A stretch of 64,000 nt of DNA from an uncultured Hyphomicrobiales bacterium. GTDB lineage: Bacteria; Pseudomonadota; Alphaproteobacteria; Rhizobiales; Beijerinckiaceae. The translations under genes and the position numbers were made by a program. Positions 52,784 to 60,197 of the stretch are shown here, piece by piece; positions within the stretch are counted from its first letter, which is position 1, and every line of letters begins with the position of its first letter. A model generated the notes under the pieces. The model saw nothing but the letters and a program-made list of their open reading frames with translations. It was not told where the DNA came from and did not search any database. Where the stretch lies: assembly GCA_903825465.1 (NCBI GenBank), contig CAIKAR010000089.1:47288-111287 (forward strand), in the 5' to 3' direction.

Positions 52784-54274
52784 TCACTCCGTCAAATAGC
52801 CGAATTTTTTGCGCGCCAGCGCCCGCATCTCGGGCGAGGGCTGGTTCACCTTCGGGTACTTGTCCTTCCAGTGGAAAGGCTTGCAGGCGTCGATGATGGC
52901 GCGGCTGTTTGTGAAGTCGCCCTTGGCCTTCCGCTCGGGCTCGATGCGCGGGTCAAGCGGCGTCGACCAGGCGTTTGTGATGATGTCGATGGATGTCGCT
53001 GGATCGCTGCGCGTCAGCACCGCCCACATCACCTCCTCCAGATTCGACACGTCGATGTCGTCGTCGACGACGATCACGTAGCGCCCCGCGTAGGCGCCGG
53101 AGTGGCACATGGCGGCCACGTGGCCCGCCTGCTTCGCGTGGCCGCCGTAGCGCTGCTTGATGGCGACGGCCAACAACAGGCGCGCCGTGCCGATTTCATG
53201 CGCCCAGGCCGCCGTCACGTCGGGCACGCCCGCCTTGGCGATGTTTTCTCGCACGATCGCCGAGCGCGTCAGCGCGCGGTACCGCGCGATCTCGTCGGGC
53301 GGCCGCTGCGGCGCGCAACCCAGCAATATCGGATCGTTGCGATGGTAGATCGCCTTGATGTCCATGACCGGCTCGGGCCGCACGTCCGAGCCGTAGTAGC
53401 CGAACCATTCGCCGAACGGCCCCTCCGGCTTCATGTTGCCGGGCATGACAAAGCCCTCGATGACGATTTCCGCGTCGGCGGGCACGGGCAGCCCGGTGAT
53501 CGGCGCCTTGACGAGGTCGACCGGCTTGCCGCGGATGCCGCCGATGACTTCGTATTCGCAAACGCCGTAGGGAATTTCGCTCGACGACATCAGGAACGAC
53601 ATGGGGTCGCAGCCCACGACGATCGCGACGGGCATGGGCTCGCCGCGCGCCTCGTATTTGTCGCGCATGATGCGGCCGTGCTTGCCGGGCGAAATGTAGA
53701 AGCCGACCGTCTGCTTGTCGTGGATCATCACGCGGTAGGTGCCGCAGTTGATCCAGCCCTCCTCGGGGTCGCGCGTCACGTTGAAGCTGCCGGTGCCGAT
53801 GTAGCGGCCGCCGTCATCCTCGTGCCATTTCGGCGTCGGAAAAATTCCGACGTCGATGTCGTCCCCCGTGATCTTGTTCTCGAACACCGGCCCGTCGTTG
53901 ACGTAGCGCGGCTCGACGCGCTTGAGGTCGGCCATGTAGTTGACGCGGAAGGCCTCGCTCAGTTCGAGCTTGGTCATGTCGGTTGGAAATCCAAGCGTCA
54001 TCGCCGCGCGCTTGCCGCCGAAGAAGTTCACCAGCACGCGGCTGCCCTTCAGCGTGCCGGGCACGTCGGAAAACACCACGGCGGGCGCCTTCTCGTCGTG
54101 CAGCAGCACTTCCGCGGCCATGCCGATGTCTTGTTGCCAGCTCAATCCGCTGGCCTCGCGCACCTCGCCGAGCTTGCGCGCCTCCTCGATCCATTCGCGC
54201 AGGTCGGTGTAGGCGAGGGCGGGCGCGACCCGCTTTTCGGCGCCGGAATCGTTCGTCATCGGGGCGGTCTCCAC
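52784..54274 (-). CDS. UbiD family (prFMN-dependent) decarboxylase
   Basis: FNVTRDPEEGWINCGTYRVMIHDKQTVGFYISPGKHG..., PADAEIVIEGFVMPGNMKPEGPFGEWFGYYG; Arg/Glu/Glu positions expected for UbiD catalysis appear present. Confidence 0.92.
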   Translation of the reverse strand: METAPMTNDSGAEKRVAPALAYTDLREWIEEARKLGEVREASGLSWQQDIGMAAEVLLHDEKAPAVVFSDVPGTLKGSRVLVNFFGGKRAAMTLGFPTDMTKLELSEAFRVNYMADLKRVEPRYVNDGPVFENKITGDDIDVGIFPTPKWHEDDGGRYIGTGSFNVTRDPEEGWINCGTYRVMIHDKQTVGFYISPGKHGRIMRDKYEARGEPMPVAIVVGCDPMSFLMSSSEIPYGVCEYEVIGGIRGKPVDLVKAPITGLPVPADAEIVIEGFVMPGNMKPEGPFGEWFGYYGSDVRPEPVMDIKAIYHRNDPILLGCAPQRPPDEIARYRALTRSAIVRENIAKAGVPDVTAAWAHEIGTARLLLAVAIKQRYGGHAKQAGHVAAMCHSGAYAGRYVIVVDDDIDVSNLEEVMWAVLTRSDPATSIDIITNAWSTPLDPRIEPERKAKGDFTNSRAIIDACKPFHWKDKYPKVNQPSPEMRALARKKFGYLTE

Positions 54275-54280
54275 CGGCTT

Positions 54281-55330
54281 TTATTTCGATTTCGCGACGT
54301 AGGGACCGAGTTCGCGGACGGCGGCCTCGGTCATGCGGAGATCGACGGCTTGCGCCGCCGAAACCCCGCCCTCGATCCAGCCCTGCGTCCTGTAGAAGTC
54401 GAGGTCTTTCTGCAAACCCGCGACATTGAGCCGGCCGTTGGGATCGACGCCTTGTGGCGCGATGGCGCGGTAGATCGCGGGATCCTTTATCGCCGTGTAT
54501 TCCGTCAATATCGAGACCACTTCGTCCGCGTTGGGGCCTGCGATCAATCCATCCTTCAACGCGTCGTTGTAGAAGCGCGCGCCCTTGATGAACGCGCGCA
54601 TGAAGCGGCGCGCGGCGTCTGGCCGTTCGTTGATGAATTTTCCCGACATCAGCGTGACGGAGGCCTCGTGGCCGGGGTCCATGACATCGTCGGATGTCAC
54701 GCGCGTGGCGTAGCCGGCCGTGATCGCTTGGCTCGCCGAGGGTTCCGCCGTCAATCCCGCGTCGATCGCGCCGTTCGCGAGCGCCGCGACCGTGTTGGGA
54801 TAGGAGAGATAGACGGGCTCGATGTCCTCGAATTTCAGGCCGATTCCACGCAGGTAGTTGGCGAGCGTCGCCGTCGCGCTCGATCCCGTCGAGGGCATGG
54901 CGATCTTCATGCCCTTGATGTCGCGGGGGCTCTTGTAGCGGCCCGACGCGATCAGGTCGCCGCGGACGATCAGCAGGTTGTGGCCGTAGCCCGCGGGGGC
55001 GTTGCCGCTGCTGACGACGATCTTCAGGCCGATGCCGCGCCCCACCGCGTTGTAAAGCGCGGCGTTGCCCGAGCTTGTCGCGGCGTCGAGCTCGCCCGTG
55101 CCCAAGGGCGCGATCATTTTAACGCCGGTGTCGAACGGCGTCATCGCGACGTCGAGGCCCTCGTCGGCGAAAAACCCTTTTTTGCTGGCGATGAAAACGC
55201 TGACGTCCGAGGATGTGCCGGCGGTCGCCATCTCGACATGGTCGAGCGCGCGCGCCGGGCCGGCGAACGACAGCGCGGCCGCGAGCGCCGCCGCCGCGGC
55301 GATGACATGAAATCCGGCGCCAGCGCGCAT
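54281..55330 (-). CDS. ABC-type substrate-binding protein (NMT1/SsuA-like) with signal peptide
   Basis: MRAGAGFHVIAAAAALAAALSFAGPARALDHVEMATAGTSSDVSVFIASKKGFFADEGLDVAM. Confidence 0.87.
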   Translation of the reverse strand: MRAGAGFHVIAAAAALAAALSFAGPARALDHVEMATAGTSSDVSVFIASKKGFFADEGLDVAMTPFDTGVKMIAPLGTGELDAATSSGNAALYNAVGRGIGLKIVVSSGNAPAGYGHNLLIVRGDLIASGRYKSPRDIKGMKIAMPSTGSSATATLANYLRGIGLKFEDIEPVYLSYPNTVAALANGAIDAGLTAEPSASQAITAGYATRVTSDDVMDPGHEASVTLMSGKFINERPDAARRFMRAFIKGARFYNDALKDGLIAGPNADEVVSILTEYTAIKDPAIYRAIAPQGVDPNGRLNVAGLQKDLDFYRTQGWIEGGVSAAQAVDLRMTEAAVRELGPYVAKSK

Positions 55331-55428
55331 GGAAGCCTCCCGATCTTCGGTCGAAAGTGGTCGGCGACGGGGGGAGAGTCAACCACCTCTCGAAGGGTGG
55401 CGTCGATGGCGGGGACCGGCTGTGAAAG

Positions 55429-56631
55429 TCAAACGCGCTCCAGCAGCAGCGCGACGCCCTGGCCGACGCCAATACACATCGTCGCGAGCGCGTAGCGGCC
55501 CTTGATCGCCCGCAACTGGTTGACCGCCGTCGTCGCGAGACGCGCGCCGCTCGCGCCGAGGGGATGGCCGAGCGCGATGGCGCCGCCGTTCGGGTTCACG
55601 CGGGGGTCGTCGTCGGCGAGGCCGAGGTCGCGCAACACCGCCAAGCCCTGCGCCGCGAAGGCCTCGTTCAACTCGATCACGTCGAGCTGGTCCAGCTTCA
55701 CGCCGACGCGGCCCAGCAATTTGCGCGTCGCCGGCGCCGGGCCGATGCCCATGACGCGCGGCGGCACGCCGGCGGTCGCCATGCCGACGATCCGGGCGCG
55801 CGGTGTCAGGCCATGTTTGGCCGCGGTCTTCTCGTCGGCGACGATCAGCGCGCAGGCGCCGTCGTTGACGCCGCTGGCGTTGCCCGCGGTGACGGTTCCA
55901 TCCGCCCTGACCACGCCCTTCAATTTCGCGAGCGCTTCGAGGCTGGTTTCGCGCGGGTGTTCGTCCCTGGCGAAGACGATCGCGTCGCCTTTTTTCTGGG
56001 CCACGGCGACGGGCACGATCTCGGCGTCGAAAAATCCAGCCTTTTGCGCCGCGAGGGCCTTCGTCTGGCTCGCCAGCGCCATGCGGTCCTGCGCCTCGCG
56101 CTCGATATTGAATTCCACCGCGACGTTTTCCGCGGTCTCGGGCATGGCGTCCACGCCATATTGCTTCTTCATCAGCGCGTTGACGAAGCGCCAGCCGATC
56201 GTGGTGTCGTACACCGCGTTGGCGCGGCTGAAGGCGCTGTCGGCCTTGGGCATGACGAAGGGGGCGCGGCTCATGCTTTCGACGCCGCCCGCGATCATCA
56301 AACAGGCTTCGCCGCCGACGATGGCGCGCGCGGCGCTTCCCACCGCGTCGAGGCCGGAGCCGCAAAGGCGGTTGATCGTCGCCCCGGGGACGGTGTGCGG
56401 CAGGCCGGCCAGCAGCAGGCTCATGCGCGCCACGTTGCGGTTGTCCTCGCCCGCCTGGTTGGCGCATCCGTACAAAACATCGTCCACGGCGGCCCAATCC
56501 ACCCGCGCATTGCGCGCCATCAGCGCCTTCAGCGGCGACGCGCCGAGGTCGTCGGTCCGCACGCTCGACAGCGCGCCGCCGTAGCGGCCAAAGGGCGTTC
56601 GCACGGCGTCGCAAACGAAGGCGTGGTTCAT
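55429..56631 (-). CDS. Thiolase (3-oxoadipyl-CoA / acetyl-CoA acyltransferase, PcaF-like)
   Basis: MNHAFVCDAVRTPFGRYGGALSSVRTDDLGASPLKALMARN...GATINRLCGSGLDAVGSAARAI...NPNGGAIALGHPLGASGAR...TMCIGVGQGVALLLERV. Confidence 0.93.
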   Translation of the reverse strand: MNHAFVCDAVRTPFGRYGGALSSVRTDDLGASPLKALMARNARVDWAAVDDVLYGCANQAGEDNRNVARMSLLLAGLPHTVPGATINRLCGSGLDAVGSAARAIVGGEACLMIAGGVESMSRAPFVMPKADSAFSRANAVYDTTIGWRFVNALMKKQYGVDAMPETAENVAVEFNIEREAQDRMALASQTKALAAQKAGFFDAEIVPVAVAQKKGDAIVFARDEHPRETSLEALAKLKGVVRADGTVTAGNASGVNDGACALIVADEKTAAKHGLTPRARIVGMATAGVPPRVMGIGPAPATRKLLGRVGVKLDQLDVIELNEAFAAQGLAVLRDLGLADDDPRVNPNGGAIALGHPLGASGARLATTAVNQLRAIKGRYALATMCIGVGQGVALLLERV

Positions 56632-56649
56632 GCGCGGCCTCTTGGGAAA

Positions 56650-57393
56650 TCAGATCGCGGCGTTCTTGCGCAGCAGGTTCACGCGGAACACCTGCGTGAA
56701 GGCGAGGCGGCCGCCGCTCGTGTCGGCGTTGGCCTCGAAGCGGCGGCGCGCTTCCGCCGGCCGCAGGTCGAACAGGGCCTTGCGTTTGACGTCGCGGTCG
56801 ATCTGGTCTTCGCGCCACTCCTCGAAGTCGGCGAAGTCGCGCGTCGAGCGCCACATCTTTTCGCTCAGGGGCGAGAAGCCCGCCGCGCCCAACGCTTCGA
56901 TCGCCGCGTAGGCGAGCGTCCTCACCTCGGTTTCGTCGTTCACCAGGACGGTCGCGTCGTGATAGTTGCCGGCCGGCACGGGTTCCATCGCGTAGAGAAG
57001 GCCGCCGGGCTTCATCACGCGCGCCGCCTCCTTCAGCGCCCGCGCCGCGTCGGGCATGTGGTGCAGGCTGTTTGAAAACGCCACGACGTCGAAGTGTCCG
57101 TCGGGCCACGGCAAGGCTTCGCCGCTGGCGACGCGGAAATCGACCGCGACGCCCTCGCTCGCCGCCGCGGCTTTCGCCGCGCCGATTTGCTTTTCCTTGA
57201 CATCGACGCCGGCGACCTCGGCGAATTCGCGCGCCAGCGAGCGCGTGAACTTGCCCTCGCCGCAGCCTATGTCGAGAACGCCGCCGCCTTGGCCAGCGAG
57301 CAGCTCGCGCGCCGCCGCGGCGTTGGAGCCGATTTCGAGCGCCGCGATCTCCTCGCGCGTCGGCGCCATCGCGCGGCGGACGTTCTCCCGCAT
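56650..57393 (-). CDS. Class I SAM-dependent methyltransferase
   Basis: GGVLDIGCGEGKFTRSLAREFAEVAGVDVKEKQI...FDVVAFSNSLHHMPDAARALKEAARVMKPGGLLYAMEPV. Confidence 0.88.
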   Translation of the reverse strand: MRENVRRAMAPTREEIAALEIGSNAAAARELLAGQGGGVLDIGCGEGKFTRSLAREFAEVAGVDVKEKQIGAAKAAAASEGVAVDFRVASGEALPWPDGHFDVVAFSNSLHHMPDAARALKEAARVMKPGGLLYAMEPVPAGNYHDATVLVNDETEVRTLAYAAIEALGAAGFSPLSEKMWRSTRDFADFEEWREDQIDRDVKRKALFDLRPAEARRRFEANADTSGGRLAFTQVFRVNLLRKNAAI

Positions 57394-57405
57394 CCCCAGC
57401 TCCCG

Positions 57406-58281
57406 TCAGCCGACAACGAGCGCGATGTGCTCGCTGTGGCCGTCGCTCATGCCGCGCGCCTTCATCCAGTCGTAGGCGCGGGTGAACAACTCCTCGCTGT
57501 AATGATCGACGTGCTTGTAATGCACGAAGGCCCGCAGCAATTCGCTCGGCTCGAGCGCGCCCTTGGCCTGCGCGGCGATGTGACGCGCGTATTTGCGGAA
57601 GTCGGCGTTGATCATGTCGACCGCCTTGTTCTCGGCGTCGTAATAGGCCTTGCGCAATTCCGGCGAGAGATCGGGCGCGATGACCTCGCCGCCGCGGTAG
57701 AAGGAGGCGGCGATGATGTGCGCGCCTTCCTTGAGGCCGAGGCTGATGAAGGGCTCCATTACGGCGACGGCGCGCGCCGTTCCCGCCTTCAGCGCGGCCC
57801 AGCGGGCCTGCGGCAATCCGCCGTTTTCGATTTTGACATGGCCGGCGCCGCAGGCGCTCTCCAGCATTTGCAGCGTCGTGTAGTGCGAACCCGTGAGTTC
57901 CTGCACCATGACGGGCACGTCGACCATGTCGCGCGGCGTCTGCAGGGCGTCGTCGAAGGAGAGGATCGCCTGGGCGGCGACGGCGGCGCGCAGCGCGGCG
58001 AGCTTGCCGCCGCGGGCGCCGCGCTCGAGCCTGTCGATGCTGGCCCACTCGCAAACGTTGTAGCTGTCGGCGCCGCCGCAATCGAACAACTGTTCCTTGA
58101 GCCGCCCCATGAACGGGGTTTGCGCGTTGTCGCGCTCGCGGTCGGCGTAGGTGGCGGAGAACGCCACATCGAGGCCAGCTTGGGCGAACAGGCCCTCCTC
58201 GATGCCGACGATGACGGGGAGGTCGAACACGGGGTTGTTCGGCGCGATGCGCACGGTCGCGGGTTCCGAATGGGATGACAT
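57406..58281 (-). CDS. NMT1/THI5-like substrate-binding-fold protein without evident signal peptide
   Basis: MSSHSEPATVRIAPNNPVFDLPVIVGIEEGLFAQAGLDVAFSATYADRERDN...; no hydrophobic N-terminal segment. Confidence 0.7.
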   Translation of the reverse strand: MSSHSEPATVRIAPNNPVFDLPVIVGIEEGLFAQAGLDVAFSATYADRERDNAQTPFMGRLKEQLFDCGGADSYNVCEWASIDRLERGARGGKLAALRAAVAAQAILSFDDALQTPRDMVDVPVMVQELTGSHYTTLQMLESACGAGHVKIENGGLPQARWAALKAGTARAVAVMEPFISLGLKEGAHIIAASFYRGGEVIAPDLSPELRKAYYDAENKAVDMINADFRKYARHIAAQAKGALEPSELLRAFVHYKHVDHYSEELFTRAYDWMKARGMSDGHSEHIALVVG

Positions 58282-58393
58282 GGCTTGCTCCTGTGCGGGA
58301 TGTCGCGCGCCTGTTTAAACCCGTTCTCCAGCCGCGGGAAGCCCGCGCCGTGGCGCTTGTGTCGGGACGGGCGCGGACTTCGAAATGGCGCCC

Positions 58394-60103
58394 TTACAGG
58401 CCGAAGACGAACAGCATCGCCGCGCTTGGCTGGTCCTTCATTTCCGGCGCGCGCTTCAGCTTGCCGCGCGCGTTGTTGAAGAGGCCGGAGGCGATGGCGA
58501 CATATTGCTTGCCATCGACGGCGTAGCTCATCGGCGGCGCGTTGAAGCCCGCGCCGACGTTGACGCTCCACAATTCATCGAGCGTCTCGTCGTCGAGCGC
58601 GACGATGGTCCCGTCCAGCAGGGCGGTGAACACCACGCCGCCCGCCGTGGAAAGCACCCCGGCGAAATTCGGATAGTCGAACTCCTTCCGGCCGCGCACG
58701 CTCGCGTCCGTCGGGTCGATCGCGATCACGCTCGACGTGATGCGCCCAGCGTCGGCCGTCTTGCCGCCGACGAAATTGCCCCTCGTGTGCGATTGATAGT
58801 CCGGCGTGACGTTGGCGCAGCCCTCGTTCGCGGCGACATAGATCGTCTTCGTTTTCAGGCTGTAGGACGCGGGCCAATAATTGTTGCCGCCCGACGTGTC
58901 CGGGCACATGCGGCGCGTGCGGCCGTCGTCGTTGACGTTGGGGCCCTCGTTGTAGATTTGCACGTCGCGGGCTGGATCGTAGTCGACGGGCTTGCCGGTC
59001 TTGACGTCGACGCCCTTCGTCCAGGTGACTTCCTTCACGTATTGGCCGGCTTTGAGGAACTGGCCGTTCAGCCGGTCGAACACATATTCAAATCCGTTGC
59101 GACCCGTGTGCGAAACGACCTTGCGGCTTTCGCCGTTCACCATCTCGTCGAGGAGGATGTGCGTTCCCGTCTCGTCGTAGTCGTGGTTGTCGTTGGGATT
59201 GTATTGGTGCCACCAGCTGATTTTGCCGGTCGCGGCGTCGAAGGCGATGGCGCTCGACGTGTAGAGGTTGTCGCCGGGCCGGAAATGCGAATCATAGCCG
59301 GGCACCGGATTGCCCGAGCCCCAATAGGAGAGGTTCGTCGCGGGGTCGTAGGAGCCCGTCACATAGAACGCGCCGCCGCCGGTTTGCCAGGCGTTGTTCT
59401 TGTCTTTCCAGGTCTCGCTTCCGGGCTCGCCGGGCGCGGGAATGGAATAGGTCTTCCACTTCAATTCGCCGGTGCGGGCGTCGAGCGAGGCCACCCAGTC
59501 GCGCACGCCGCGGTCGCCGCCCGACGCGCCGATCAATATCGAGTTCTCGAGCGCCAGCGGCGCGGCGGTGAGCTCGAGATCGGGCTGGTCGTGAAGGTTC
59601 TTGTCCCAGACGACCTTGCCGCTGTCGCGGTCGGTGGCGACAACGCGGCCGTCGTGGCTGGTGATGGAGATCACGAGGTTGTTCCACAGCGCGACGCCGC
59701 GGTCGCGGTCGAGCTTTTGCTGGCCTGGGTCCATCTTCCACACAAGGGCGCCGCGCGATCCGGAACGGACGTCGATTTTGTAAACGACGCCCCATGGATC
59801 GACGATGTACATGAAGCCGTCGTCGACGAGGGGCGTCGCCTCGACGCCCTCGTTGCCCGATGTGCCGCCGAGCGGCAGCGCGAATTTCAGCTTCAGGTTC
59901 TTGACGTTCGTTTTGTCTATTTGCGACAGCGGCGCGTGGCGTTGCGCGCTGTAGTCGCGGTGGTTCGTCAGCCAGTTGCCGGGCTCGGGATTTCGCAGCC
60001 GTTGAAACGTCGCGTCCGCCGCGCCCGCGGCTTGCGCCGCGCCCAACACGGCGAGCGCCACCGCCGCCGCCTTCAAGGCTTCCGTCCTCAAGCCTTCCGT
60101 CAT
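58394..60103 (-). CDS. PQQ-dependent methanol/ethanol-type alcohol dehydrogenase
   Basis: Signal peptide; W-motif repeats; VEATPLVDDGFMYIVDPWGVVYKIDVRSG, WGSGNPVPGYD, HDYDETGTH, CPDTSGGNNYWPASYSLKTKTIYVAANEGC. Confidence 0.92.
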   Translation of the reverse strand: MTEGLRTEALKAAAVALAVLGAAQAAGAADATFQRLRNPEPGNWLTNHRDYSAQRHAPLSQIDKTNVKNLKLKFALPLGGTSGNEGVEATPLVDDGFMYIVDPWGVVYKIDVRSGSRGALVWKMDPGQQKLDRDRGVALWNNLVISITSHDGRVVATDRDSGKVVWDKNLHDQPDLELTAAPLALENSILIGASGGDRGVRDWVASLDARTGELKWKTYSIPAPGEPGSETWKDKNNAWQTGGGAFYVTGSYDPATNLSYWGSGNPVPGYDSHFRPGDNLYTSSAIAFDAATGKISWWHQYNPNDNHDYDETGTHILLDEMVNGESRKVVSHTGRNGFEYVFDRLNGQFLKAGQYVKEVTWTKGVDVKTGKPVDYDPARDVQIYNEGPNVNDDGRTRRMCPDTSGGNNYWPASYSLKTKTIYVAANEGCANVTPDYQSHTRGNFVGGKTADAGRITSSVIAIDPTDASVRGRKEFDYPNFAGVLSTAGGVVFTALLDGTIVALDDETLDELWSVNVGAGFNAPPMSYAVDGKQYVAIASGLFNNARGKLKRAPEMKDQPSAAMLFVFGL

Positions 60104-60197
60104 GGCGTCCTCCCGATTTCCACATAGGCCGCGCGCGGCGGCTCCGTACGCGCACCTTGACCCACATCGCGGCGTCCCGCAATCGCGCCGCGGCTTA

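Follow-up and report, generated by a model that had tools for sequence, protein, structure and literature searches.

Here we ask whether a gene of the PQQ-dependent alcohol dehydrogenase (PQQ-ADH) fold, located in a 64-kb window (the whole stretch of DNA analysed, 64,000 nucleotides) from an uncultured Hyphomicrobiales bacterium, encodes a functional lanthanide-type enzyme, given that its product carries the lanthanide-type aspartate, lacks the vicinal cysteine pair (CC) and has an aspartate at a metal-ligand glutamate. The vicinal disulfide of alcohol-oxidising quinoproteins is a rare structure, and its presumed role as an electron carrier from PQQ to cytochrome c rests on few enzymes. The gene (P0002) and its predicted export signal lie as follows:

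58394..60103, minus strand: PQQ-ADH-fold gene P0002, 569 aa, supported by its open reading frame, NCBIfam and Pfam matches, an AF2 model (pLDDT 87.6) and PedH as best PDB match
60017..60103, minus strand: predicted signal peptide, about residues 1-29, from a hydrophobic Ala-rich N-terminus in the sequence and a model helix at 5-21

The reading frame, read from 60103 to 58394, is intact over its 569 residues, and the signal peptide read off its N-terminus implies that the protein would be periplasmic. An antisense frame on the plus strand (58385-60127) was discarded as a shadow of P0002 without homology support. Comparison of P0002 with its orthologues gave dN values of 0.10-0.14 and dS values of 1.06-1.18, the latter near saturation, and a dN/dS of about 0.1, showing purifying selection. 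The protein matches the Pfam PQQ domain (PF01011, E 8.9e-55), and Foldseek placed its AlphaFold2 model (pTM 0.89) closest to PedH (TM 0.83-0.85), with PedH, XoxF and MxaF ranging between TM 0.81 and 0.85; PedH was also the top PDB match by sequence (261 bits). The eight-bladed propeller predicted by the model and the Pfam domain together place P0002 in the PQQ-dependent alcohol dehydrogenase superfamily. Its score with the NCBIfam model for PQQ-dependent methanol/ethanol dehydrogenases (TIGR03075) was 442.3 bits (E 2.4e-132), below the curated cut-off of 480; the CC-less members of its clade that were tested scored 411-451 bits, and the CC-containing sisters tested (L059, L061, L043) passed the cut-off with 521-527 bits.

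Residues were mapped by alignment with XoxF (6oc5, 6dam, 4mae), PedH (6zcw) and quinohaemoprotein ADHs (1kb0, 1kv9), which located these features:

59165..59185, minus strand: HDYDETG, residues 307-313, with catalytic Asp308 and lanthanide-type Asp310
59498..59530, minus strand: GASGGDRGVRD, with Asp197 in place of the metal-ligand Glu
59309..59311, minus strand: Asn265, the metal-ligand Asn, retained
59684..59734, minus strand: shortened loop M124-W140 at the vicinal CC site of XoxF and PedH, with Arg135 (equivalent to MxaF R109) retained
59363..59365, minus strand: Tyr247 at the PQQ-stacking Trp (W243 of MxaF)
58904..58906, minus strand: Cys400, first of an ordinary non-vicinal pair
58817..58819, minus strand: Cys429, second of that pair

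The earlier note on this DNA had claimed an extra lanthanide-type aspartate in HDYDETG, an aspartate at the usual glutamate ligand in GGDRGVRDW (residues 195-203), no vicinal pair in the segment DPGQQKLDRDRGVALW (residues 125-140) and a single cysteine pair in the mature protein, and the alignments bear it out on each point. D308 and D310 align with the catalytic and lanthanide aspartates, D197 aligns with the metal-ligand glutamate, and the CC columns are gapped in P0002, its loop being shorter by 6 (relative to PedH) to 8 (relative to XoxF) residues. No shift of the alignment with XoxF, PedH and the quinohaemoprotein ADHs restores CC or Glu. C400 and C429, the only cysteines of P0002, align with the second, non-vicinal pair of XoxF (ICP...NHVC), which rules them out as a substitute ring. 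Chance is excluded as the origin of the two aspartates, since D310 does not vary among 42 aligned homologues and conservation at D197 is at least 90%. The residues R135, T179, S194, N265, D308, D310, R335 and N408 are all retained in the alignment, R335 aligning with the active-site arginine. The second tryptophan position (W476) is Phe480 in P0002, and the E55 and W476 positions are variable. The side chain of aspartate is one carbon shorter than that of glutamate, and the metal geometry must therefore differ from that of the Glu enzymes.

Phylogenetic analyses used a 112-row tree and a careful 76-row tree from which the trait columns had been removed. Both trees put P0002 among sequences that mostly lack CC and have Asp. 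In the latter tree, 41 sequences including P0002, nearly all of them CC-less and with Asp, formed one clade (bootstrap/SH-aLRT 100/99), the exceptions being one member with Gly, one pair with Asn and one pair having a longer loop with VW replacing CC. The hosts of the clade are uncultured Hyphomicrobiales, Acidobacteriota (Terriglobia, Bryobacterales) and Betaproteobacteria. Because the nearest relatives outside the clade (L043/L046 and L059/L061/L092/L100/L101/L104) retain CC, Glu and DxD, the loss of CC and the replacement of Glu by Asp are most simply read as derived changes within the DxD lineage. Among these sisters, L059 and L061 from the same hosts and L043 and L046 from Betaproteobacteria are about 40-46% identical to P0002 and share its DxD, but unlike P0002 they have kept CC and Glu. 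The two changes also occur separately, with CC missing and Glu retained in a Paracoccus/Roseomonas group and in L030/L032, and with Glu replaced by Asp and CC present in the L063 group. In two subgroups within the clade both metal ligands are altered together, E177D+N261Q in L026/L084 (Asp for Glu and Gln for Asn) and E177N+N261E in L096/L105 (an Asn/Glu swap), and these paired changes would fit a metal site that has been maintained. L049 was grouped with these two subgroups as showing paired metal-ligand changes.

The position of P0002 on the trees agrees with the suggestion, made previously from the motifs, of a divergent clade with the lanthanide-type aspartate, P0002 lying outside the XoxF, PedH/ExaF and sorbose dehydrogenase clades. 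With the lanthanide-dependent ethanol dehydrogenases of the PedH/ExaF type (6zcv/6zcw) it has in common DxD, the Asn ligand and the Arg; it is about 30% identical to PedH and differs from it in lacking CC, in having Asp for Glu and Tyr for the stacking Trp, and the PedH clade (100/100) excludes it. XoxF (XoxF1/2/5: 7o6z, 4mae, 6oc5) shares with P0002 the DxD pair, the Asn ligand, the second cysteine pair and the propeller, but P0002 has no CC, has Asp for Glu and is excluded from the XoxF clade (100/100); no xoxG/xoxJ-type neighbours were seen within the 64-kb window. The absence of CC has a precedent among solved PQQ enzymes in the sorbose dehydrogenase/type I ADH family (4mh1 and 4cvb; matched with 7wmd and 9m2c). 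Unlike P0002, this family lacks both the DxD pair and, at the corresponding position, a Glu/Asp ligand motif, and 4mh1 and 4cvb are far from P0002 on the tree, which excludes this assignment too; their lack of CC is independent of the loss in the P0002 clade. The host genome also encodes a sorbose-dehydrogenase-like paralogue (L064, C5:36284-38011) with Ser at the Glu ligand, Glu at the active-site Arg and DxD retained. Judged by its sequences, the clade represents a genuine variant within the family of lanthanide-type PQQ-ADHs, and a widespread one; in the literature searched, subscription papers being outside the search, we found no description of it. It constitutes a natural experiment: single genomes encode close relatives with and without the ring, and their cytochrome c partners are related, leaving the role of the ring open to test by comparison within the clade and its sisters. 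It also takes the candidate lanthanide enzymes beyond what the motif definition now covers (Glu, Asn, DxD).

Taking these results together, we consider it rather probable that P0002 functions as a secreted alcohol dehydrogenase dependent on PQQ, that it comes from the DxD lineage and belongs to a clade that has lost the vicinal disulfide and changed its ligand Glu to Asp, and that it works with scavenged PQQ, likely a lanthanide, and ring-free electron transfer. Under this explanation the apoprotein would bind environmental PQQ and a metal in the periplasm, with D197, N265, D308 and D310 as ligands of the metal, most probably a lanthanide; D308 and the metal-polarised PQQ would oxidise the alcohol; and a small c-type cytochrome would take up the electrons directly, with no disulfide ring involved. 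The extra aspartate has been reported to be essential for lanthanide coordination (PMC8546591; PMC11996626), and P0002 is probably lanthanide-capable, lanthanide dependence being plausible. The PedH and PQQ-ADH matches, the retained residues, the invariant D310, the paired ligand changes, the dN/dS of about 0.1, the existence of solved PQQ enzymes that have no CC, the cytochrome neighbours and the canonical homologue L062 (the last two described below) fit this explanation, whereas the geometry imposed by Asp, the lack of a recognised PqqU, the lack of a cytochrome gene within 1.5 kb in its own subclade and the tryptophan changes count against it. We infer in this way the scavenging of PQQ, the use of lanthanide, the cofactor, the alcohol substrate and the electron route. 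Tyr247, Phe480, the number of paralogues, the absence of PQQ biosynthesis genes over the cut-off and the cytochrome neighbours are features additional to those in the earlier note.

The supply of PQQ bears directly on this explanation. The host genome (98.6% complete) contains 12 homologues, nine of them close (44-100% identity to P0002) and three distant, and members of its genus have from 0 to 23 PQQ dehydrogenase matches per genome (23 in G011), some of which are fragments. Tandem CC-less dehydrogenases, in two or three copies per locus, were observed at L003, L011, L012, L019 and L115. Searches with TIGR02111/TIGR02109, for which order relatives were useful controls and 14 named control genomes were uninformative, gave no PqqC match and no PqqE over the cut-off in the host genome. 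PqqC passed the cut-off in none of the 37 genomes of the genus and in 5 of 24 order relatives, and PqqE in none of the ten genus genomes tested and in all five order controls. Of the genomes reached through clade loci, only three that host CC-less members had PqqC over the cut-off (G065, G068, G088), as did both Betaproteobacteria bearing the CC-containing L043/L046. The host nonetheless retains a canonical CC/Glu homologue, L062, which passes the PQQ-ADH cut-off with 590.7 bits. That the loss of PQQ synthesis caused the loss of CC is not supported because this host, without PQQ synthesis, retains L062, and such genomes also keep the CC homologues L059 and L061. The signature Y99/R304/R365 employed in the PqqU paper (PMC12124388) was present in none of the three host TonB receptors in a rough alignment; their best scores with the PqqU model were 71-88 bits against 1200, and nothing in the 61 genomes passed that model. 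Adopting a conservative view, PQQ would be scavenged from the environment, since many bacteria are reported to have PQQ enzymes and no PQQ synthesis (PMC12124388), and this fits a host with no PqqC or PqqE over the cut-off that retains L062. The multiplication of DxD dehydrogenases in a genus with neither PQQ synthesis genes over the cut-off nor a recognised PqqU points to uptake by a route not yet described, or to a cofactor not yet recognised.

A TonB receptor family is encoded beside a PQQ dehydrogenase gene (L010:3057-5363, minus strand; host copy G000:C57:22412-24649), with strong matches in 7 of the 12 genus genomes having at least four PQQ dehydrogenase matches and in none of the 25 others (Fisher p 7.7e-5, uncorrected for phylogeny). 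This receptor is a candidate importer of PQQ or lanthanide, although it occurs in the PqqC-positive G037 as well.

The same absences could mean that the clade no longer uses PQQ, its site being empty or filled by another cofactor; its members would then be 'empty quinoproteins' with a new task in binding or in some other redox reaction. We regard this as unlikely. The missing biosynthesis genes, the occurrence of PqqC in only three of the clade hosts reached by locus, the unrecognised PqqU, the lost CC, the altered stacking Trp of P0002 and the variability of E55 and W476 would all agree with it, and NCBIfam names a related group 'acido-empty-quinoprotein group A' (TIGR04528), PQQ-ADH relatives named for Acidobacteria whose name implies PQQ-less hosts. 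But P0002 reaches 376.5 bits with that model against a cut-off of 650, and the clade members tested, including acidobacterial ones, also fall far below it, which rules out their assignment to this group. Moreover, most PQQ residues and all metal residues are retained or conservatively altered, G065, G068 and G088 do have PqqC, and the PQQ-minus host keeps canonical CC/Glu homologues.

Another improbable alternative concerns the metal, namely that the enzyme is a PQQ alcohol dehydrogenase using Ca2+ or promiscuous for metals, in which DxD would simply be inherited and Asp197 would make the site less suited to lanthanides. The replacement of Glu by Asp does shorten one ligand, and promiscuity is predicted for one DxD enzyme type, the membrane GDH, which is known to form complexes with several metals (PMC11996626), whereas D310 is invariant in the 42 homologues and the net ligand charge is the same in P0002 (three Asp and Asn) as in XoxF (Glu, Asp, Asp and Asn). 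Quite improbable is the broader scenario of a large and expanding secreted PQQ-ADH-fold family in uncultured Hyphomicrobiales and Acidobacteriota, which would keep the lanthanide site, remodel the cofactor floor and depend on some cofactor different from PQQ, its host cells having neither PQQ synthesis nor a recognisable means of importing PQQ. That P0002 is a decaying or non-catalytic paralogue of an expanded family is very improbable, for in spite of the many paralogues per genome (12 in the host, 23 matches in G011) and of the few relatives with internal stop codons, its frame is intact, it has orthologues elsewhere with dN/dS near 0.1 and its catalytic residues are retained.

If P0002 is a ring-free alcohol dehydrogenase, as we favour, its electrons would require an acceptor. 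For MxaFI and XoxF the acceptor is a dedicated c-type cytochrome, and a part for the disulfide ring in the transfer is presumed (PMC8546591). In both Hyphomicrobiales and Acidobacteriota, many members of the clade have a neighbouring c-type cytochrome gene (CxxCH, Pfam Cytochrome_CBB3), which lies no more than 1.5 kb away at 12 or more of the 35 other CC-less loci with enough flank and within 5 kb at 19 of them, these counts being lower bounds as some loci lay outside the searched set. In the Tyr247 subclade to which P0002 belongs, no such gene was found within 1.5 kb at any of the 12 loci with enough flank; four clear homologues of the clade cytochrome are encoded elsewhere in the host genome. 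Downstream of P0002 lie five genes on the same strand (52784..58281, minus strand; Pfam and NCBIfam):

57406-58281, minus strand: substrate-binding-like protein
56650-57393, minus strand: methyltransferase
55429-56631, minus strand: PcaF thiolase (3-oxoadipyl-CoA thiolase)
54281-55330, minus strand: NMT1-type binding protein
52784-54274, minus strand: UbiD-family decarboxylase

These genes and P0002 form a possible operon, and the UbiD and PcaF members hint at aromatic catabolism. A conserved operon of this arrangement was not found at orthologous loci, and because of this a benzylic or small primary alcohol as substrate is only a guess.

Two further arrangements were observed around related genes. 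A secreted protein of about 230 aa with neither annotation nor Pfam match (L009:10217-10918, minus strand; L113:4545-5270, minus strand; and others) recurs with PQQ dehydrogenases, cytochrome c and a pentapeptide-repeat protein. On host contig C44 (L114:1148-5672), the CC-less paralogue L060 directly precedes a hydroxylase pair of the 2Fe-2S and molybdopterin kinds, an arrangement that suggests the oxidation of an alcohol to an aldehyde and then to an acid.
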